Assembly: GCA_001788835.1 (NCBI GenBank)
Contig: MFXK01000022.1
Coordinates: forward strand, 1-64,000
DNA from: Candidatus Peregrinibacteria bacterium RIFOXYB2_FULL_33_20
Lineage (GTDB): Bacteria; Patescibacteriota; Gracilibacteria; UBA1369; GWF2-33-10
Length of the DNA stretch: 64,000 bases
Direction of reading: 5' to 3'
The notes beneath the pieces are model-generated. The model did not search any database, was not told the DNA's origin, and saw only the letters and a list, made by a program, of their open reading frames with translations. Each line of letters starts with the position of its first letter. Within the stretch, counting starts at the first letter, position 1. The position numbers were made by a program, and so were the translations under genes. Below, in pieces: positions 869 to 13,011 of the stretch.

Positions 869-2029
869 TCAAGATGTTTTTAGGATCACTATCTCATAAG
901 TATCTTTTGCAATCATAAATTCTTCATTTGTTGGAATAGACATAATATAAGATTTTGATGATTTATCGCAAATCATAACTTCTTTACCAATAGCTTTCAG
1001 GTTTTCTTTTTCATTAATTTTTAAACCAAAAAAATCCATATTTTCTATAATATCTTTTCTTATTTTAGGTGAATTTTCTCCACTACCACCGGTAAAAACT
1101 AAAATATCCAAACCATTCATTCCGGCAATATAAGCCCCAATATATTTTTTCAATCTATAAATATAAATATTATAAGCCAAAATCGCTTTTTTATCTTTTT
1201 TCTTAACTCCATCCAAAATATCACGCATGTCTGATGACTTTTCAGAAACCCCTAAAAGTCCGCTTTTTTTATTTAAAATTTCATTTATGTCATTTAAATT
1301 TAATTTTTCTTTTTTCATAATATAGAACAATGCCCCAGGATCAACATCACCAGATCTTGTACCCATAACCAAACCTTCAAGCGGAGTCATTCCCATAGAA
1401 GTATCAACTGACTCTCCATTTTTAATCGCTGTTAAAGAGACTCCATTACCCAAATGACAAGTTATTATTTTTTGCTTTTTGTAATTTAAATTTAAGATTT
1501 CACATGCTCGTTCTGCTACATATCTATGACTAGTACCATGAAACCCATATTTACGAACTTTGTATTTTTTATAATATTTAAAAGGTAAGCCATAAGTATA
1601 CGCAAAATCTGGAATTGTATGATGAAAAGCTGTATCAAAAACAGCAACCTGCTTTACTTTTGGTAAAATTTTCTTAATAGCCAAAATTCCTTTTAAATTC
1701 AAATGATTATGAAGTGGTGCAAGCTCAATGCACTTTTCAATTTCATTTATTAATTTATCATCAATCAAAATACTTGATTTAAATTTCTCGCCTCCATGAA
1801 CAACTCTATGGCCAACAGCCTTTATTTCTTTTAAATTTTTTATTGAACCGTATTTTTTATCAACTAATTTATTGAACAAAAATTTTATTCCATCTTCATG
1901 ATTTTTTATTTTTGCGCCTTTAAGTCCTATTTTATCTATAAGTCCTTTTGACAAAACAATATCAGAAGGCATATCTATCAACTGATATTTAATCGAAGAA
2001 CTTCCGCAATTTAGAATGAGAACGTTCAT
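869..2029 (-). CDS. ackA: acetate kinase
   Basis: A 386-aa ASKHA-fold acetate kinase (acetyl phosphate + ADP to acetate + ATP), the ATP-yielding step of fermentative acetate formation. It shows the N-terminal NCGSSSIKYQL signature, HRVVHGG, HLGNGVS and the GTRSGDVDPG phosphate-binding region. The length is close to the family norm of about 400. It is the last gene of the ilvB-ilvN-pta-ackA series, 102 nt after pta. No Shine-Dalgarno sequence is visible before the ATG. The 3' end lies only 6 nt beyond the end of the GIY-YIG element. Confidence 0.97.
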   Translation of the reverse strand: MNVLILNCGSSSIKYQLIDMPSDIVLSKGLIDKIGLKGAKIKNHEDGIKFLFNKLVDKKYGSIKNLKEIKAVGHRVVHGGEKFKSSILIDDKLINEIEKCIELAPLHNHLNLKGILAIKKILPKVKQVAVFDTAFHHTIPDFAYTYGLPFKYYKKYKVRKYGFHGTSHRYVAERACEILNLNYKKQKIITCHLGNGVSLTAIKNGESVDTSMGMTPLEGLVMGTRSGDVDPGALFYIMKKEKLNLNDINEILNKKSGLLGVSEKSSDMRDILDGVKKKDKKAILAYNIYIYRLKKYIGAYIAGMNGLDILVFTGGSGENSPKIRKDIIENMDFFGLKINEKENLKAIGKEVMICDKSSKSYIMSIPTNEEFMIAKDTYEIVILKTS

Positions 2030-2131: not shown

Positions 2132-3145
2132 TTATTCATTATTCATTGCCTGTATCCCTGTCACAGCCACCATATCAATAATATCATCAACAGTACAAGC
2201 TCTGGAGAGATCATTCATTGGAGCACTTAACCCCTGCAAAATTGGTCCGATAGCTCTGGCTTTCGTCAAATATTGAACCAATTTATAAGCAATATTACCC
2301 GCTTCAAGTGTTGGAAAAACTAAAACATTAGCTCTACCTGCGACAGAAGATTCATCAAAAGCAGACTTTCTTCTGGCGGCAAATTCATTTAAAGCGGCAT
2401 CAGCCTGTAACTCGCCATCAATTTTCAAATCTGGATTCAAAGATTTTGCAATTTCTAAAGCTTTAATAACTTTATCACACATTGCTTCATTTTGAACACT
2501 TCCTTTAGTCGAAAAACTAAGCAAAGCAACTCTTGGATCTAAACCAGCAATGTTTTTCGCTGTCTCTGCCGAACAAATAGCAATTTGAGCTAATTCTTCA
2601 GATGTAGGGGTTGGTCTCACTGCGCAATCAGCAAAAACCAAAATTCCATTATCACCAACCCTTTTATCTTCAAAAAACATAATAAAAGCACCTGAAACGA
2701 CATTAATTCCTTGTTTTGCTTTAATTATTTGCAAAGCTGGATGCAAAACTCTGCCAGTAGAATGAGCCGCTCCAGCAACAACCCCATCAGCATCTCCATT
2801 TTTCACCAAAGTTGCGGCTAAATAAAGTGGATTTTCAGCTAATTTTATGGCTTCTTCCATAATCAAACCTTTATGCTTGCGTAATTCAAAAATCAAATTG
2901 CCATATTTTTCTTTATTTTTACTATCAAAAGGATCAACAAAAATAGCTTCCTCAATATTTTCCAAATCCATTTTTTGCGAAAATTTTATAATTTCCTGCT
3001 TATTTCCTAGCAAAGTAATTTGCGCTAATTTTTCTTTTAAAATAATATCTGCGGCTTTCAAAATTCTATCATCATTTGTTTCAGGTAAAACAATATTTTT
3101 ATTTAATTTTTTAGCTCTTTGTTTGATTTGTAAAAGTAAATCCAA
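2132..3145 (-). CDS. pta: phosphate acetyltransferase (short form)
   Basis: A 337-aa PTA/PTB-family enzyme that makes acetyl phosphate from acetyl-CoA and feeds acetate kinase encoded next to it. The conserved core is seen in NGDADGVVAGAAHSTGRVLHPALQ (residues about 112-135) and near the C-terminus in GPILQGLSAPMNDLSRA. It is the short single-domain form, without the N-terminal DRTGG regulatory domain of the E. coli enzyme. The start is TTG at 3145: an in-frame TAA lies just upstream and no closer ATG keeps the N-terminal helix. It lies 51 nt after ilvN. Confidence 0.96.
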   Translation of the reverse strand: MDLLLQIKQRAKKLNKNIVLPETNDDRILKAADIILKEKLAQITLLGNKQEIIKFSQKMDLENIEEAIFVDPFDSKNKEKYGNLIFELRKHKGLIMEEAIKLAENPLYLAATLVKNGDADGVVAGAAHSTGRVLHPALQIIKAKQGINVVSGAFIMFFEDKRVGDNGILVFADCAVRPTPTSEELAQIAICSAETAKNIAGLDPRVALLSFSTKGSVQNEAMCDKVIKALEIAKSLNPDLKIDGELQADAALNEFAARRKSAFDESSVAGRANVLVFPTLEAGNIAYKLVQYLTKARAIGPILQGLSAPMNDLSRACTVDDIIDMVAVTGIQAMNNE

Positions 3146-3196: not shown

Positions 3197-3739
3197 TCAC
3201 CCTTCCCCCCTATTCATCGCTGTAACTCCGGTTCTGGCAATTTCTTTAATCCCGAATCCTCTAACTAAATCCAAGAAAGATTCTATTTTCAATGAATCGC
3301 CTGTTATTTCAACTATAACTGAACTATGAGAAACATCAACAATTCTTGCTTTGAAAATATCAACAATCTGCATAATTTCACTTCGTGTGGATTTTGTAGC
3401 ATACAACTTGACTAATGCTAATTCACGGACAATTTTTTTATCCAATGTTAAATCGCTTACTTTCGTAATTTCAATTATTTTATAAAGCTGTTTAATTAAT
3501 TGTTCTGTGTTTGTTTTAGTCCCATCAACCATAATTGTAAGCCTGGAAATTCCTTTTTCTTCTGTGTGACCAGCCGTAATGCTTTGAATATTAAAACCTC
3601 TTCGTCGAAAAAGACCTGAAATTTTACTAATCACACCTGGTTTATTTTCCGCAAGTGCAACCACAATATGTTCTGTCTTGATCTCAACATTTTTTCTTTG
3701 AGTATAAAGACTCCGTCGTTGTTCAGTGGAAAGGGACAT
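3197..3739 (-). CDS. ilvN: acetolactate synthase, regulatory (small) subunit
   Basis: A 180-aa regulatory subunit that binds IlvB and normally confers valine feedback inhibition. The N-terminal ACT domain (residues about 24-95) has the typical ENKPGVISKISGLFRRRGFN motif. A second ALS_ss_C domain follows (about 100-175). Length and domain order are normal for the IlvN/IlvH family. It lies 86 nt downstream of ilvB, separated by AT-rich direct-repeat-like DNA, and is followed by pta. Whether it keeps valine sensitivity cannot be read from the sequence. Confidence 0.95.
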   Translation of the reverse strand: MSLSTEQRRSLYTQRKNVEIKTEHIVVALAENKPGVISKISGLFRRRGFNIQSITAGHTEEKGISRLTIMVDGTKTNTEQLIKQLYKIIEITKVSDLTLDKKIVRELALVKLYATKSTRSEIMQIVDIFKARIVDVSHSSVIVEITGDSLKIESFLDLVRGFGIKEIARTGVTAMNRGEG

Positions 3740-3825: not shown

Positions 3826-5556
3826 CTATAGCCCTGTTATAACCTCATCCAAACTCTTGCCTGCAGGGACCATAGGATAAACGTTTTCTTCATGTTCAAC
3901 AACAAAATCACAAAGAACTGGACCTTTTTCTTGTCTCATTTTCTTAATACACTCAATCATTTCTTTATGTGTTTTTGCTCTATAGGCTTTCATACCACAC
4001 GCTTCTGCCAATGCCTTAAAATCAGGATTATAAAGAGCTGTATGAGAATAATTTTTATCAAAAAATAACTCCTGCCACTGGCGAACCATTCCCAAATATG
4101 AATTGTTTAAAATTGCAATTTTGATTGGAATATTATCTTGCATTAACGTCACAAGTTCTTGAATATTCATCATCACACTTCCATCTCCAACAATAACCCA
4201 AACTTCTTTCTTTGGTTCAGCAATTTTTGCTCCCATTCCCGCAGGAATGCTATATCCCATAGTTCCAGATCCTCCCGAAGTTAAAAGTTGATTTGGATTT
4301 TTGAATTGAAATTGTTGGGCGACTATCATTTGATGTTGACCAACATCAGTTGCAAGCACAATATCACCTTTTGTCTGATTATAAAGTTCGGCAATAACAG
4401 CTCTCATTGAAATAGAATTTTTCCCATCACGGCCACTAGAATCTTTTAACCTATGTTGAGAAGGCAAAGGGTATTTTTTCCTCCATTCATTAATTTTTTT
4501 ATGCCAATCAGTAATTTGTGGTTTTTCAATTATTTGATTTAGTTCAATTAAAATATTTCGAGCATCCCCAACAATTGGAAGCTCGCAATGAACATTTTTA
4601 CCAATTTCAGCAGGATCGATATCAATATGAATTATATGCGCATTTGGAGCAAAATTATCAGCTTTGCCTATAATTCTATCATCAAAGCGTGTCCCAATTC
4701 CTATAATAAGATCTGCCTCCTGTACAGCATAATTTGAATGAACAAATCCATGCATCCCAAGCATACCCAAAGCATATTTATGATTTTCCGGAAAAGCTCC
4801 AAGTCCGTGCAAGGTTGTTATAACTGGTATATTTGTTTTATTTACAAATTCCATTAACTCAAGCATAGCATTAGAAATCAAGACCCCATGACCAGCAATA
4901 ATAACAGGTTTTTTTGAAGTTTTGATCCATTGCGCGGCTTCTTTTATCATTTTTTTATTACCTTGCAAATTTGGTTTATAACCAGGGATATCCACTAAAT
5001 CTGGATATTCAAATTTTTCAACAATCTGATTCTGAACATCTTTTGGAAAATCTATCAAAACAGGTCCTGGTCTACCTGTTTTGGCTATGTGAAAAGCTTC
5101 TTTAATAATCTTTGGTATATCTTCAGCATCATTAATTAAATAACTATTCTTTGTTATCGGCTGTGTAATACCAATCATATCAGCTTCCTGAAAAGCATCA
5201 GTCCCAATCATAAATGTCGGGACCTGCCCTGTAATTGCAATTATTGGCATTGAATCCATATATGCATCATAAATTCCTGTAACCAAATTTGTTGCACCAG
5301 GCCCTGATGTCGCAAGGCAAACACCAATTTTCTTATGACCTGTTACACGACTATAACCTATTGCGGCCAAAGCCGCGGCCTGTTCATGCCTTACAAGAAT
5401 ATGTCTAATTTCAGGAAAATCTGTTAACACATCATAAAAAGGTATTATCGCGCCACCTGGATAACCAAATATATCTGTCACTCCTTCAGCAATCAAACTC
5501 ATTGCCATAATATGCGCTCCAGTAAGGTTTTTATCTGTTTTTTTAAATTTATTCAT
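3826..5556 (-). CDS. ilvB: acetolactate synthase, catalytic (large) subunit
   Basis: A 576-aa thiamine diphosphate enzyme condensing two pyruvates to acetolactate, the first step of valine/leucine synthesis and also an entry to acetoin. N-terminal Pyr domain with GYPGGAIIPFYDVL and the catalytic Glu in HEQAAALAAIGYSR. The central domain lies at about 200-330. The C-terminal PP domain has GDGSVMMNIQELVTL and LNNSYLGMVRQWQELFF, which fit ALS rather than pyruvate oxidase. It is the first gene of ilvB-ilvN-pta-ackA. The 5' leader (5557-5675) holds a Leu/Ile/Val-rich leader peptide and competing hairpins, so attenuation is likely. A terminator-like hairpin ends only about 6 nt before the ATG, and no Shine-Dalgarno sequence is seen. 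Confidence 0.97.
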   Translation of the reverse strand: MNKFKKTDKNLTGAHIMAMSLIAEGVTDIFGYPGGAIIPFYDVLTDFPEIRHILVRHEQAAALAAIGYSRVTGHKKIGVCLATSGPGATNLVTGIYDAYMDSMPIIAITGQVPTFMIGTDAFQEADMIGITQPITKNSYLINDAEDIPKIIKEAFHIAKTGRPGPVLIDFPKDVQNQIVEKFEYPDLVDIPGYKPNLQGNKKMIKEAAQWIKTSKKPVIIAGHGVLISNAMLELMEFVNKTNIPVITTLHGLGAFPENHKYALGMLGMHGFVHSNYAVQEADLIIGIGTRFDDRIIGKADNFAPNAHIIHIDIDPAEIGKNVHCELPIVGDARNILIELNQIIEKPQITDWHKKINEWRKKYPLPSQHRLKDSSGRDGKNSISMRAVIAELYNQTKGDIVLATDVGQHQMIVAQQFQFKNPNQLLTSGGSGTMGYSIPAGMGAKIAEPKKEVWVIVGDGSVMMNIQELVTLMQDNIPIKIAILNNSYLGMVRQWQELFFDKNYSHTALYNPDFKALAEACGMKAYRAKTHKEMIECIKKMRQEKGPVLCDFVVEHEENVYPMVPAGKSLDEVITGL

Positions 5557-5562
5557 ATTAAG

Positions 5563-5587
5563 AAAAATCCGCTTTCATGGGCGGATT
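5563..5587 (-). terminator. intrinsic terminator of the ilv attenuator (3:4 hairpin)
   Basis: On the minus strand a 7-bp stem AATCCGC/GCGGATT with an 8-nt loop is followed by TTTTTC. It lies between the leader peptide and the ilvB ATG, so it would end transcription before the structural genes unless the 2:3 pairing forms. Confidence 0.7.
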
Positions 5588-5650
5588 AATTAATTACGCA
5601 AATCCACCCTTTATTATATAAGGACTAATGACACAATAAGGTGGAGATTT
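5563..5650 (-). promoter_or_regulatory. transcription attenuator of the ilvB operon
   Basis: Four segments can be read on the minus strand: 1, AAATCTCCACC (5650-5640, inside the leader peptide); 2, GGGTGGATT (5609-5601); 3, AATCCGCCC (5587-5579); 4, GCGGATT followed by T's (5572-5563). Segment 1 pairs with 2 (one bulge), 2 pairs with 3 (9 bp with one U-G pair), and 3 pairs with 4 (7 bp, then a T run). This is the textbook protector/antiterminator/terminator layout. Ribosome stalling at the Leu/Ile/Val codons would mask segment 1 and favour 2:3, allowing read-through. The pairings are seen directly; the regulation is inferred. Confidence 0.75.
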
Positions 5651-5658
5651 TTTTCCAT
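5614..5658 (-). CDS. ilv leader peptide (14 aa)
   Basis: A 14-codon ORF ATG...TAA encodes MEKNLHLIVSLVLI. Eight of 14 residues are branched-chain amino acids (four Leu, two Ile, two Val), packed at positions 5-14. It starts about 17 nt after the predicted transcription start and ends just before segment 2 of the attenuator. Its first codons overlap segment 1, as expected for a ribosome-controlled attenuator. The composition and position match leader peptides of branched-chain amino acid operons in other bacteria. It is far too short for routine gene calling. No strong ribosome-binding site is seen; an A-rich stretch precedes the ATG. Confidence 0.75.
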   Translation of the reverse strand: MEKNLHLIVSLVLI

Positions 5659-5681
5659 TTTTTTATAATTTAACTGAACTA

Positions 5682-5711
5682 ATTATAAATTATTTATAAA
5701 TTAAATTGCAA
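5682..5711 (-). promoter_or_regulatory. putative promoter of the ilv leader and operon
   Basis: On the minus strand TTGCAA (5711-5706) is followed after 18 nt by TATAAT (5687-5682). Transcription would start near 5675 and read through the leader peptide and attenuator into ilvB. The promoter lies directly after the end of rnc. Confidence 0.55.
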
Positions 5712-5726
5712 TGGATTTTAAAAAAA

Positions 5727-6440
5727 TCATTTTTTCTTCTTATCCCAGCCTTTCATTACCAAAGCACTTTGAGCCGCAGCTTGTTCAGCGATCTGTTTAC
5801 TCTTGCCAACACCAGTGGTAATTAAATCTTCGTTAATAAAAACCCCCATGGTAAAAGCCTTATCATGATCAGGACCTTCTTCCTTAATTAATTTATAAAT
5901 TGGGGTGATATTAAAAGTGGCTTGAGCCATTTCTTGAAATTTAGATTTAGCATCAATATGCAAACCTTTCTGCAAAATGTAATCTAAATAAATCAAAATA
6001 AATTTATTAATAAATTTATGGGCTACCTCATAGCCCTGGTCTAAATAAATTGCTCCGATCAAAGCTTCACAAGTATTAGCCAAAATATAACTTTTCTTAT
6101 CACCACCTGACTTCTGTTCACCCTTACTTAAATATAAATATTGTCCAAGATATAATTTCTCGGAAATCACTGCCAAATGCTTTCCTCGCACCAAAGCCGA
6201 TCGAAAATTTGTTAACTCCCCTTCTTGGTTATCATAATTTCTATACAAAAAATCGGTCACTACCAATTCCAACACCGCATCTCCCAGAAATTCTAATCTT
6301 TCATTAGATTCCAACTTTTCTACTTTATATTCATTCATGAAAGACTTATGGATAAAAGCATTATTCAATAAATCTTTATTGCGAAACGCAATACCAATCA
6401 TTTTTTCTAATTCATCATATTTATGAGGATCGTAGAACAT
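5727..6440 (-). CDS. rnc: ribonuclease III
   Basis: A double-strand-specific endoribonuclease for rRNA and mRNA processing. The RNase III signature NERLEFLGDAVLEL carries the metal-binding acidic residues; a second acidic cluster follows in NTCEALIGAIYLDQG. The C-terminal double-stranded RNA-binding domain runs from about DAKSKFQEMAQ to the end, including GKSKQIAEQAAAQSAL. The frame is open to an ATG at 6467, which would overlap nusB by 14 nt. I prefer the ATG at 6440, because it puts about 14 residues before the GIAF motif as in other RNase III proteins and avoids the overlap. It follows nusB and rpmF. Confidence 0.95.
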   Translation of the reverse strand: MFYDPHKYDELEKMIGIAFRNKDLLNNAFIHKSFMNEYKVEKLESNERLEFLGDAVLELVVTDFLYRNYDNQEGELTNFRSALVRGKHLAVISEKLYLGQYLYLSKGEQKSGGDKKSYILANTCEALIGAIYLDQGYEVAHKFINKFILIYLDYILQKGLHIDAKSKFQEMAQATFNITPIYKLIKEEGPDHDKAFTMGVFINEDLITTGVGKSKQIAEQAAAQSALVMKGWDKKKK

Positions 6441-7525: not shown

Positions 7526-7539
7526 TATTTTAAGTGTTT

Positions 7540-10500
7540 ATGGCAAATACTCCCCCACCAGGACCAAATACTCCCCCACCAGGACCAAATACTCCCCCAC
7601 CAGGACCAAATCAACCTAACATTGTTCCTGTAAGTTTTTGGCAAAGATTAACGCGTGGTAGAGTACAAACTCTTTTAACACCAACAGAAATAAATACAGT
7701 TAAACAAACCTTAAGTCCTTTGGCTGCAGATTACGATTTACAAATAACTGACATTCAAGAAAACACGACCGCAAAAACAATAAATTATGATCGCACCACT
7801 CATACCCTCACTGTACCGAATTTCTCCGAAGATCCACAAAAATTACAAAATCAAACTAGAGAAGCTTTGAGACAAGCCAAAAATCAGGAAATAAATGAAA
7901 TACATACAAAAGCTCAAAATACTTTAACTCATTTAATAGAAAAATATAAAAGGATCAAATTTGAACCCAGTAAAATAGCTCCTTATGAAATTCCAAAGGG
8001 CATGACCTTAAATCGACCGCAGTTATCTGCACTGCAATCAAGATCTGCAGACTTAACAAAAATGCAAGTTGCTATAGGACTAGTCACTGAAAGAAGACGT
8101 GAAATCTTATCTGGTCGTGGATGGAGGCAAGATTATCTTTTTGAATTCAGATGGGACAGCCAAAACACCACTCCTTTAAATACGCAAAAACAAAATATTC
8201 TTGAAGAATCAATAAACATAAATAAACCAATTCAGATAAGCCTTCCAGCTAATTTTCCACAACACGACCTAACAACTTTAATACAGCAATGCGTAAGTGA
8301 TCAAGACTTAAAACCTAATAGAGGACAAGCTCTGGGACCTTCTTCCAATACTAGACTACATTCCCAATTAAATGACCGATATTTAGATAATCCTGTTGTT
8401 GTTGCAAAAATCGCCAAATATTTAGATGCTATTCGTTCGGCATTAAATCCATGGCCTCAGGATTTTCATTTAATTCTGTGTGATAATTTAACAAATCCCA
8501 ATCAAGTAAATACGAAATCTGAATACCACCATATTGCCCAAATAGATGTTAGATTAATATGTTCAAAATCATTAACTGATATTTTATCTGCAGTTCAGCA
8601 AACCGTGGCACAAGTGTCCGCCACCGAACAGACAATCGAGACTAATAGAGCTATGGTTGAGACTGAAGTGAATAATTTATCAGGTATAGCAGGCCTTTAT
8701 AATATACAATTCACCACGATCGCCATAGCAAAATCTTCTCTTGATGAAGAAATGAGAGCTGTTGATCCAAAAGCTTTTCCAAACAACCAAAATTCACCAT
8801 CAAGACAACCTGTCCCGTTAGTTAATATGACTAAAACAGGTAATTCCATAATTTTTGCGCTTAATTATACGGAATTACATAATCATCCAAACAGTGTGCA
8901 AAATGAAGCATTAAGGCTGGCCAGAGACGAAATTGCCACGGAAATGCAAAAAGAAGAAGCTGATGCTGAACAAGCTTTAGACAATATTCAGCAAAATTTT
9001 GTGGGCGAAGGCAAAGGCATTACTGAGGTTGATCCCAATACAATTCCACCTTTATCAGATAATTTCAGAACTGCTGGCGGGGGAACAGATCTACCTAGAT
9101 TACAAAATCACCAATTAAATCTTATTGCTCTATTATCCATCAATCAAATTTTCTCAAATTTAAGCGATTACCAAAAAATGATATTATGTGGAGATACTGA
9201 TTATCAAAGACAAAATCCAGTCCAGAGTGCCGTATTTACCAAATTAATATGGTACCCTGATGCTCAAGGCAGGCAAAATCCAAACGGATTAATTATTCCA
9301 CCAAATCGGGCACAAGCTTATCCATTGAATCCAGATGGGATATTATTTCTAGAACCACTTGGTGATTTATTAGCTTTCAATAGTCAAGAGGCAGAACAAA
9401 TACTTATAAATCTTCTTCCAGACCAGGAACCGCCGCTTTCCGCAACAATTACCCCTGAATATCAACATCCATTCATGATGGAAAGATTATTTCAATTAGA
9501 AAGAGTCCCAGCATGTGGACAATTTTTAGTAGAGAGCATTTTTGATGAAACTGTCACTAGTAATAATCCAATAGACAGATTAGATAATAGCGATCCAAAT
9601 CATCCAAAAATGATATTAAAATCCAGTGATTTTGTCGGTAAAACTAAGCAGGAAAGTGAAAATTTGCTCCTATCACTAAGAAAAGAAATCGACAGTTATA
9701 CAGAAATGGAAACCGCAAGATCAGAGCTATCAAGCCAACATAATATTACTTTACCTGATGATGCTGCTATTTGCAGGACTATACGAAGGCTTGGTTTATC
9801 TAACCGGCGCGTATTTGAGTTATATTTTCAAGGTATTTTATTAATAGCTGATAATAATAGTTTAACACCGCCACCAACAGAAATCGCTTTTGAGCCAAGT
9901 GTCACTTGCCAATTTAGAGCAGTCAATTCCCCTGCCCGACTGGTATTACCTGCAGATCCAAGTTATTTCAACGAAAATTTATTAATAACAGAGCTAACGA
10001 CACCACCTGATCGCGATCCACGTTTTGACACAATCACACAATTATGGCGAGCTCTGGAATTAGATGGGGTAATAGAATGTCCTATTGTCATTGCCAGAAT
10101 TTCAGATCCTAGTTTAAATTCCATAGAAACTTCTGATGAAATGGTGGCTTGTATACTTACGGAGGATCAGGATTCGATGGCACAAGCAAATTATGTTTTA
10201 TTATTAAATATAGTTAAGGCCCTGGAAAAAGCTTTTGCACCAACTACCATTGAACATGGAGACTTAAAATCCTCTGCCCTTTTAGAAAGCTATGCCATCA
10301 CCTTATCTAGATTTTTAAGGGCGGCGACGGTGTCAGGTTTAGCATTGCCATCTGCACACATAGACAGCCTGGAAATATTATTTGATACTGATGCTGTTTT
10401 AGAATATGACAATCCAACAAAAGCTCTCGCAATTCCAGCTCAGATGACCACTTCTAATTTGGCTTTAACCTTAAAATTATTTAGTAATGCAAATGGAGCA

Positions 10501-13011
10501 AACAACTTAACTCCTCCAGTTAGACAGCCACTAACATTAAATTTTACCCCTGGAGTTACCCCATTATCTACAACAAAATACACTCCATCGCCAAAACCAG
10601 ACTTCAAAGGCAACAGATTATCAATCATTTTAGATGAAGTCAGAGAAAAAACCCCTATTAAGCATCCTTCCATCATTTATGCTTTAACTTTTGAAAAAAT
10701 TAGAAACGAGGCAAGGAGATATCTCACTGAAGGTTGTGAAGATCCCAAAAAAACCATTGCCGCTTTGAATGATGAACATGTTCGCACTTTAATATTAAAT
10801 GCTTGTCTTAATGTAGCTAATAAGGATGAGGCCGGATTACAAATTTTACTAAATCAAGCAGCTTCTGCCACCCAATCCCATGCCCACGCAGATACTGCAA
10901 CAAATGGTCATGATGCTAGTGTCGACTTAAACGCTTTAAATTCAGCTAGCCTTATTCTTGCTTTGACGGCAACTTTTAATATATTTCCTGTAAATAATAA
11001 TGAAATAATGGCTGCTTGCCAAGAATTCAAACCTTCCGCTAATGAGATCAAAAAAATTATAAAAGAGATCGCGCACATGGAAGAACGACATGATAGCATG
11101 CCCGACCAATTAAAAGATGATCAGGCCGTCATGTCTCTGCGTGAAGACATAATTAAATTAACTGGTCAAAGAGACAGTCTCAGTGCTCAAAGCCGTGAAC
11201 TAAGATATTTGGAAGGTTTACTTGAAAGCATAATAACCTCAACGCAAAAAAACGGTTTGGCTCTTATAAATGAAAGAATTATGGAAAAATGCCAAGCTGA
11301 ATTATCAAAAACTGAATCTTTATCATTAAGACTTATCATTAGAGCATATGCAGCTCATAATGGACTGTTAGCAGAGCTATGTGATCCCCCTGACAATACC
11401 ACCACTCCGAGTCGACCACCGTATTTTGATGAACTGGAAAAAATTAAAAAAAATCCAAACTTGGCAACTAATGTTGAGTTTCACAGGATTGCTCAAGCTT
11501 CAACACCAGCAACCACACGCGAAGTAGTGCGTTTAAATTTTCTCAGCTATTTGGTAAGGCCCAAAAAGGATGCCACAGATAGACTAAAAAAAGAGGATTA
11601 TAGCGATAAATGGTGGTACCCGATTGTGCAAGCTTCACATGCTACTAGACCAGTACGACAAGATATAAGTGTTTTTATTCAGCAAGTTTCAGCAATATTA
11701 AATCAATCAGCCCAGAACAGAGCAATCCCTCAGCAAGATGAAATTATGCAGGCCATTGTCCAAATAACCACGCCAGTAGAAAATAAAACGGATGAGAAAA
11801 GAACGAACACTGAACACAAACCAAGTTTTGAAGAATTACTAATCCAAACGCTCCATGAGCTTAGTTATCTTGAACACTCAAGCTCTACATCAAGAATGGC
11901 TTATCCAGCAAGAGTGGCAAAAGTGAAACAGCAATTCAGAGAAGCCTGGATAGTTATCAGGGAAGAAGACAACTATGGTGATGCCCAATTTAGAGATGCT
12001 TTGGAAACAGAATTAAACCAGGCAACGTCATTAAAAAAGGTCATGGAACAAAAAAGACATTTAGAAAAAAGTAGTCATATGGATAGCCAAGAATTTAATG
12101 ACGAAGTTAAAGCTTTATTCACAAAGAAACATAATCATGAACATTTAACCCCAACACAAGAAAAAGAAAAAGCGCAACAAGAAAGAAGAAAAATGCAAAA
12201 TATGATAAAAAAATTACAAAAATCAGATTTAGCAGGCTCCAAAATACAAGCTGAATTATTTGAATTATTCACCAGAGTAAAAGTAAAAGCGGCTGAAGGT
12301 AAAGAAACAGAAGAGTTGAGAACCATATTCCAAGTATTACATTCCACAAAAGATGGTGATCCAACCATGCTTCACGTCAAAAATGGACCTGGTATTATAA
12401 AAACCTTGCTAGATAAAGAACTAATTGGCGTAGGACAGGTTAAAGAAATGCTAGATAAAATTGAACAGGCAATCGCAATTTTAGTTCCATCAGAACAAAT
12501 AGAAGCTATTGCCTGGGTAAGAGACCTGGAAACTTATCTATATGACCACTTAAATGGAGTCGTAAAAGTATCTGACGCAAAATATCTTACCGCTTACCCA
12601 TCCCAATTTGTGGAAGCCTATAGTAAATGTGAAACAGAATCGAAATTAGTAGCAGAACTTCAGGAAGATATTCATAAATCCCATCAAAAAGGTTTAAAAG
12701 GAGTACTTGCTGGTGTCTTAGGAGAAGAAAGCGCTATAGATATAGCTGGTCATGCTTTCAGCGAAGGTCTAGATCAATATCAAAATGGCAGAAGAATACC
12801 AGCCATCGTAGCAGAATTAGCGCCAACAGTATTACCTGAAATATTAGGGGCCACCTTAGTAGAGCTTGGTTTAGGATATTTGGCTGGTTCCGACAAAAAA
12901 TGGATAAGAAGAGGAGCTGAATTAGCACGAGGTTTCATGCATGTCGTTCAACATAAAGGCAAAGAAAATCCTCCAAAAGAGACCCCAGCTAAAAAAGCCG
13001 AACAGAAATAA
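7540..13011 (+). CDS. giant protein of unknown function (1823 aa) with proline-rich N-terminus
   Basis: I do not recognise a family. The frame extends two codons upstream to a GTG at 7534, but the ATG at 7540 follows the promoter and is the more natural start. After it come three perfect PPPGPNT units. The next about 450 residues seem to hold three diverged copies of a helix-strand-strand-helix unit (about 45-120, 285-360, 385-470), judged from recurrent patterns such as YDLQITDI, DFHLILCDN and YNIQFTTIA each followed by a strand and a helix. The middle is mixed; from about 1170 it is largely helical and charged. No signal peptide or clear membrane helix is seen. The C-terminus has a Gly/Ala/Leu-rich amphipathic stretch and ends in a Lys/Pro/Glu tail. 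It is the first of six co-directional unknown genes. Confidence 0.85.
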   Translation: MANTPPPGPNTPPPGPNTPPPGPNQPNIVPVSFWQRLTRGRVQTLLTPTEINTVKQTLSPLAADYDLQITDIQENTTAKTINYDRTTHTLTVPNFSEDPQKLQNQTREALRQAKNQEINEIHTKAQNTLTHLIEKYKRIKFEPSKIAPYEIPKGMTLNRPQLSALQSRSADLTKMQVAIGLVTERRREILSGRGWRQDYLFEFRWDSQNTTPLNTQKQNILEESININKPIQISLPANFPQHDLTTLIQQCVSDQDLKPNRGQALGPSSNTRLHSQLNDRYLDNPVVVAKIAKYLDAIRSALNPWPQDFHLILCDNLTNPNQVNTKSEYHHIAQIDVRLICSKSLTDILSAVQQTVAQVSATEQTIETNRAMVETEVNNLSGIAGLYNIQFTTIAIAKSSLDEEMRAVDPKAFPNNQNSPSRQPVPLVNMTKTGNSIIFALNYTELHNHPNSVQNEALRLARDEIATEMQKEEADAEQALDNIQQNFVGEGKGITEVDPNTIPPLSDNFRTAGGGTDLPRLQNHQLNLIALLSINQIFSNLSDYQKMILCGDTDYQRQNPVQSAVFTKLIWYPDAQGRQNPNGLIIPPNRAQAYPLNPDGILFLEPLGDLLAFNSQEAEQILINLLPDQEPPLSATITPEYQHPFMMERLFQLERVPACGQFLVESIFDETVTSNNPIDRLDNSDPNHPKMILKSSDFVGKTKQESENLLLSLRKEIDSYTEMETARSELSSQHNITLPDDAAICRTIRRLGLSNRRVFELYFQGILLIADNNSLTPPPTEIAFEPSVTCQFRAVNSPARLVLPADPSYFNENLLITELTTPPDRDPRFDTITQLWRALELDGVIECPIVIARISDPSLNSIETSDEMVACILTEDQDSMAQANYVLLLNIVKALEKAFAPTTIEHGDLKSSALLESYAITLSRFLRAATVSGLALPSAHIDSLEILFDTDAVLEYDNPTKALAIPAQMTTSNLALTLKLFSNANGANNLTPPVRQPLTLNFTPGVTPLSTTKYTPSPKPDFKGNRLSIILDEVREKTPIKHPSIIYALTFEKIRNEARRYLTEGCEDPKKTIAALNDEHVRTLILNACLNVANKDEAGLQILLNQAASATQSHAHADTATNGHDASVDLNALNSASLILALTATFNIFPVNNNEIMAACQEFKPSANEIKKIIKEIAHMEERHDSMPDQLKDDQAVMSLREDIIKLTGQRDSLSAQSRELRYLEGLLESIITSTQKNGLALINERIMEKCQAELSKTESLSLRLIIRAYAAHNGLLAELCDPPDNTTTPSRPPYFDELEKIKKNPNLATNVEFHRIAQASTPATTREVVRLNFLSYLVRPKKDATDRLKKEDYSDKWWYPIVQASHATRPVRQDISVFIQQVSAILNQSAQNRAIPQQDEIMQAIVQITTPVENKTDEKRTNTEHKPSFEELLIQTLHELSYLEHSSSTSRMAYPARVAKVKQQFREAWIVIREEDNYGDAQFRDALETELNQATSLKKVMEQKRHLEKSSHMDSQEFNDEVKALFTKKHNHEHLTPTQEKEKAQQERRKMQNMIKKLQKSDLAGSKIQAELFELFTRVKVKAAEGKETEELRTIFQVLHSTKDGDPTMLHVKNGPGIIKTLLDKELIGVGQVKEMLDKIEQAIAILVPSEQIEAIAWVRDLETYLYDHLNGVVKVSDAKYLTAYPSQFVEAYSKCETESKLVAELQEDIHKSHQKGLKGVLAGVLGEESAIDIAGHAFSEGLDQYQNGRRIPAIVAELAPTVLPEILGATLVELGLGYLAGSDKKWIRRGAELARGFMHVVQHKGKENPPKETPAKKAEQK
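7546..7608 (+). repeat. three perfect 21-bp tandem repeats (PPPGPNT coding)
   Basis: Three identical 21-nt units AATACTCCCCCACCAGGACC+A lie in frame at the 5' end of the giant gene. Exact identity at third codon positions points to recent slippage or expansion. Confidence 0.9.

Follow-up and report, generated by a model that had tools for sequence, protein, structure and literature searches.

The window analysed here is a 64,000-nt stretch of a contig of Candidatus Peregrinibacteria bacterium RIFOXYB2_FULL_33_20, whose genome (G000) spans 1.50 Mb in 42 contigs and is 96% complete. The original prediction, made from the sequence alone, had placed the DNA in a Patescibacteria-type genome, in agreement with the host class, which also includes Peribacteraceae and Gracilibacteria members. 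On the minus strand, read 5' to 3', the locus comprises nusB, rnc, a 170-nt gap, ilvB, ilvN, pta and ackA. The features of the locus are:

6924-6454, minus strand: nusB
6467-5727, minus strand: rnc, ending 140 nt upstream of the hairpin
5682..5711, minus strand: putative sigma-70-like promoter TTGCAA-18-TATAAT, 10 of 12 matches, predicted start at about 5675
5614..5658, minus strand: leader peptide ORF MEKNLHLIVSLVLI, 14 codons, ATG to TAA
5635..5647, minus strand: segment 1, the protector strand, inside leader codons 4-8
5601..5609, minus strand: segment 2, GGGTGGATT, starting 5 nt past the end of the leader stop codon
5579..5587, minus strand: segment 3, AATCCGCCC, part of either the antiterminator (2:3) or the terminator (3:4)
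5566..5572, minus strand: segment 4, GCGGATT, an intrinsic terminator together with segment 3 and the U-tract
5563..5567, minus strand: U-tract
3826..5556, minus strand: ilvB, large subunit of biosynthetic acetolactate synthase (TIGR00118, 750 bits, cut-off 538)
3197..3739, minus strand: ilvN, small subunit of acetolactate synthase (TIGR00119, 193 bits, cut-off 57)
2132..3145, minus strand: pta, phosphate acetyltransferase, perhaps third in the operon (TIGR00651, 343 bits, cut-off 311)
869..2029, minus strand: ackA, acetate kinase, perhaps fourth in the operon (TIGR00016, 501 bits, cut-off 293)

The window also holds, at 7534-13011, a 1,825-codon ORF of unknown function that starts with a proline-rich NTPPPGP repeat.

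The leader reads ATG GAA AAA AAT CTC CAC CTT ATT GTG TCA TTA GTC CTT ATA TAA. The 14-codon leader with 8 Leu, Ile or Val codons that had been claimed at 5658-5614 is correct in sequence: 8 of the 14 codons specify branched-chain amino acids (4 Leu, 2 Ile and 2 Val), and they match the products of the downstream ilvBN pathway. Of the Leu codons in the long ORFs of the window, CTC, which encodes the first Leu of the leader, is the least used (5%); none of the remaining leader codons is notably rare. Four competing RNA segments, with segment 1 within the leader and a terminator just before ilvB, are all present as first described, and the duplex energies are -13.2 kcal/mol for 1:2, -15.6 for 2:3 and -10.4 for 3:4.

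The terminator ends in AATCCGCCcatgaaaGCGGATT-TTTCTT, and 6 nt separate the end of the U-tract from the ilvB ATG. The promoter of ilvB must therefore lie upstream of the terminator. The sigma-70-like match is not above chance level, three such matches being found in the promoter scan of the region and 2.8 expected. With 7 pairs, 4 of them G-C, the terminator has a short stem. It is nevertheless the sole match of the terminator scan in 5400-5900, where 0.2 are expected, and its fold has a z-score of -3.5, with none of 200 shuffles equally good.

The effect of the leader ribosome on these pairings was modelled by setting a ribosome on each codon in turn, with 10 nt 3' of the A-site codon covered, and folding the RNA downstream of it. 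With the A-site at any of codons 2-13, the predicted structure is the 2:3 antiterminator and the terminator is absent. With the A-site at codon 14 or at the stop, only 3:4 is left (-9.0), and with no ribosome both 1:2 and 3:4 form. Since the antiterminating positions are codons 2-13, stalling would antiterminate at seven of the eight control codons.

The ribosome-position folds thus give the classical switch, and they support the reading as a stalling attenuator, of which the leader, protector, antiterminator, terminator and pathway are all in place. Under this reading, transcription would start near 5675, and a ribosome following RNA polymerase closely would translate the 14 leader codons. 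When charged Leu-, Ile- or Val-tRNA is scarce, the ribosome would stall at a control codon and cover segment 1, so that 2:3 could pair, no terminator would form and ilvB would be transcribed. With ample supply, the ribosome would reach the last codon or the stop and cover segment 2, 3:4 would form and transcription would end near 5563. If the ribosome is absent, 1:2 and then 3:4 would form, so the ground state would be off. We consider it probable, at about 0.86, that expression of ilvBN, and perhaps of pta-ackA, is governed by a ribosome-mediated transcription attenuator.

Chance was assessed with 20,000 dinucleotide shuffles of the 185-nt region. Some small ORF rich in branched-chain codons arose in 4,229 of them, and a leader density of at least 8 Ile, Leu or Val in 10 codons in 154. 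A branched-chain-rich ORF together with the full switch was seen in five shuffles, and the switch at the 8-in-10 density in none. Applied to both strands of 424.5 kb of the genome, the switch test retained 13 of 2,162 branched-chain-rich small ORFs, at 9 sites. Only the ilvB leader among these 13 combines the 8/10 density with a compact terminator and a gene 9 nt downstream; each of the other passing ORFs falls short in density, has no compact terminator or has no gene next to it. A second scan, of 1.47 of 1.50 Mb (98%), set out from 324 terminators located in gaps and considered 218 candidate leaders, of which the leader filter retained four. The ilvB leader is the only clean amino-acid leader in this 1.47 Mb, and it sits before the enzyme that begins branched-chain amino acid synthesis. 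No clean leader for His, Trp, Thr, Phe or other amino acids was found in this near-whole-genome scan.

These results bear on a simpler explanation, namely that the hairpin is a mere 3' terminator of nusB-rnc and that the leader ORF and the alternative pairings arose by chance. The gene order lends this some plausibility, since the same strand carries rnc, whose end at 5727 is 140 nt before the hairpin. However, only 6 nt separate the hairpin from the ilvB ATG, too few to hold a promoter; transcription of ilvB must therefore pass through the hairpin, which makes a plain rnc terminator less likely. The absence of the full arrangement at this leader density from all 20,000 shuffles and the recurrence of the design before ilvB in other genomes, described below, also stand against it, and we regard it as unlikely.

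The competition between 2:3 and 3:4 would by itself suit any sensor, and a bound protein, tRNA or metabolite might choose between the two pairings, the peptide being incidental. A TrmB-family gene does adjoin ilvC in the host genome, with a similar gene in its family mate G001. However, no Rfam family, T-box or riboswitch is recovered at the gathering score; the covariance-model search gave only weak matches of at most 23 bits, far under the cut-offs and none of them plausible, which makes a protein- or tRNA-sensing attenuator less likely. Moreover, the leader contains codons for the amino acids that this pathway makes, and it stops immediately ahead of segment 2, an arrangement that control by a ribosome requires. 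We find this leader-independent design decidedly unlikely. It is very improbable that the hairpins shield the start region of ilvB and act on translation instead of terminating transcription: segment 4 and the U-tract do end 6 nt before the ATG, but segments 3 and 4 with the U-tract form a recognisable intrinsic terminator, and the genome is without Shine-Dalgarno sites to sequester.

The 3' end of the 16S rRNA is GGATGGAACATTCCCTTATAG in G000 and G001, and GGATGGATCACCTCCTTT or close to it in most of the order. The canonical anti-Shine-Dalgarno CCUCC is replaced by GGATGGAACATTCCCTTA in both the host (L207, G000 C13, ~2928-2970) and G001 (L227). Shine-Dalgarno motifs before the start codons of the host are at or below background (5/249 versus 13/249). 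Starts of this kind being usual in the genome, the lack of a Shine-Dalgarno site before the leader and ilvB is no argument against leader translation. If the attenuator works as proposed, a leader whose translation starts without a Shine-Dalgarno site would suffice for it. Altered 16S tails were also seen in G027, G014, G224 and G319.

The original prediction extended the operon into pta and ackA and proposed that branched-chain amino acid supply tunes acetate formation. The gene order on one strand supports the first part. The intergenic gaps from ilvB through ilvN and pta to ackA measure 86, 51 and 102 nt, and a same-strand terminator scan of these three gaps found none; short gaps free of terminators make a single ilvB-ilvN-pta-ackA transcript plausible. 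The second part did not gain support from relatives: pta-ackA does not follow ilvBN in any of the four examined (G236, G316, G319 and G370). The idea that acetate formation is controlled along with ilvBN therefore stays a hypothesis, drawn from adjacency in one genome. In G001, pta lies near ilvC on the opposite strand.

Leader-peptide attenuation is a textbook mechanism, and in E. coli and its relatives a leader with branched-chain codons, a protector, an antiterminator and a terminator precede the acetolactate synthase genes of ilvGMEDA and ilvBN. Compared with those attenuators, the present locus has the same layout of leader and hairpins before acetolactate synthase genes, whereas its leader is shorter (14 codons), very A+T-rich and without a Shine-Dalgarno site. 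The E. coli trp attenuator likewise has a 14-residue leader peptide and four segments, with II:III competing against III:IV (PMC1183508); its control codons are Trp codons, whereas here there are eight, for three amino acids. The proposed path from stalling through the antiterminator to ilvBN expression follows the classical model (PMC1183508). Outside Proteobacteria, the same layout of a leader peptide and terminator before the first ilv gene is described for the ilvBNC attenuator/uORF of Corynebacterium (PMC11857589, PMC10272879) and the ilv-leu attenuator of Staphylococcus aureus (PMC5794164). These systems belong to other phyla, and the likeness is one of layout, with no shared sequence claimed. 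Our literature search, which covered few subscription journals and is thus weak evidence, found no report of leader-peptide attenuation in Patescibacteria. The mechanism is known, and the host phylum would be new to it. To our knowledge, almost nothing has been established about gene regulation in Patescibacteria.

Conservation of the leader was sought first among close relatives. A DNA similarity search in 89 genomes of the order returned only short A+T-rich chance matches. G001, the single family mate among 59 relatives searched and 73% complete, has ilvC and ilvD and no ilvB. Ten other ilvB loci of the order show no clear leader, except for a possible one in G006 with a poor U-tract.

The design recurs further away. 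The closest homologue of IlvB overall, 68% identical, is that of G236, a member of another order. There ilvB is preceded by MNASFVILVNVVGIPLN, followed by sequences that pair as 2:3 and as 3:4 and by a long U-rich tail, and codon-by-codon folds give the same ribosome-position switch. In another family of the class, f33, leaders before ilvB are:

G316: MNQLNVVVLLG
G317: MNLSIVVVMLG
G315: MTQLLVVLV
G319: MQKILLVLV

These end in VVVLLG, VVVMLG, LLVVLV and LLVLV, respectively, and hairpins and a U-tract come after each. Codon-by-codon folds show the expected shift with a good fit in G316 and G317, between which the 2:3 stem is unchanged and the loop differs; the fit is weaker in G315 and G319, and the leader of G318 appears degraded. 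In another class of the phylum, ilvB-ilvN-leuA of G370 is preceded by MKKQLALVLSLIINTPTGV, a 19-codon branched-chain leader, and by a terminator of 9 pairs. This 2.0 Mb genome carries a long ilvB-ilvN-leuA-type cluster (L211, C9:8000-22000). The leaders of G315, G316, G317, G319 and G370 failed the strict automatic switch test. As a control, four of the regions upstream of 42 patescibacterial ilvB genes pass in the forward direction and none as the reverse complement. Two further loci, L159 (G224) and L201, passed loose filters and were left uncounted because they are A+T-rich or without a switch.

The expected conservation was thus not borne out in sequence, at most 1 of the 10 loci of the order (G006) having a comparable leader, and was recovered in design, in G236, f33 and G370. 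Peptide and RNA sequences of leaders from different families do not align, which implies either fast divergence or more than one origin. The same two possibilities were discussed for Firmicutes by Naville and Gautheret (PMC2965389). The closest named ilvB loci, from Omnitrophota, have no clear leader and terminator upstream. A branched-chain-rich leader and a strong terminator do precede ilvB in L030 (Chitinivibrionales, ~5813-5964) and L076 (unclassified bacterium, ~4851-4972), so the scan is able to detect such leaders.

We tentatively raise a broader scenario, which we think has a minority chance of being right: branched-chain stalling attenuation may have arisen or been kept repeatedly in Patescibacteria, operating here with a 16S rRNA that has lost the canonical anti-Shine-Dalgarno, on one transcript that would tie branched-chain amino acid supply to ATP from acetate kinase. 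If attenuation operates as proposed, at least some small-genome Patescibacteria make their own branched-chain amino acids, tuned to tRNA charging, and transcription and translation stay coupled in at least some of them. The ilvB leader would also be a short RNA switch that can be transferred to a reporter.

Elsewhere in the host genome, the pathway is represented by ilvC, ilvD and two HMGL-like (leuA/cimA-type) genes, none of which has a convincing branched-chain leader. The TrmB-family transcription regulator gene (L131, 10600-11439) is divergent from ilvC, as is the similar gene of G001 (L132, 2319-3068); it is a second candidate regulator of branched-chain amino acid metabolism. In the host, ilvC is followed by genes resembling a livK-livH-livM branched-chain amino acid transporter.
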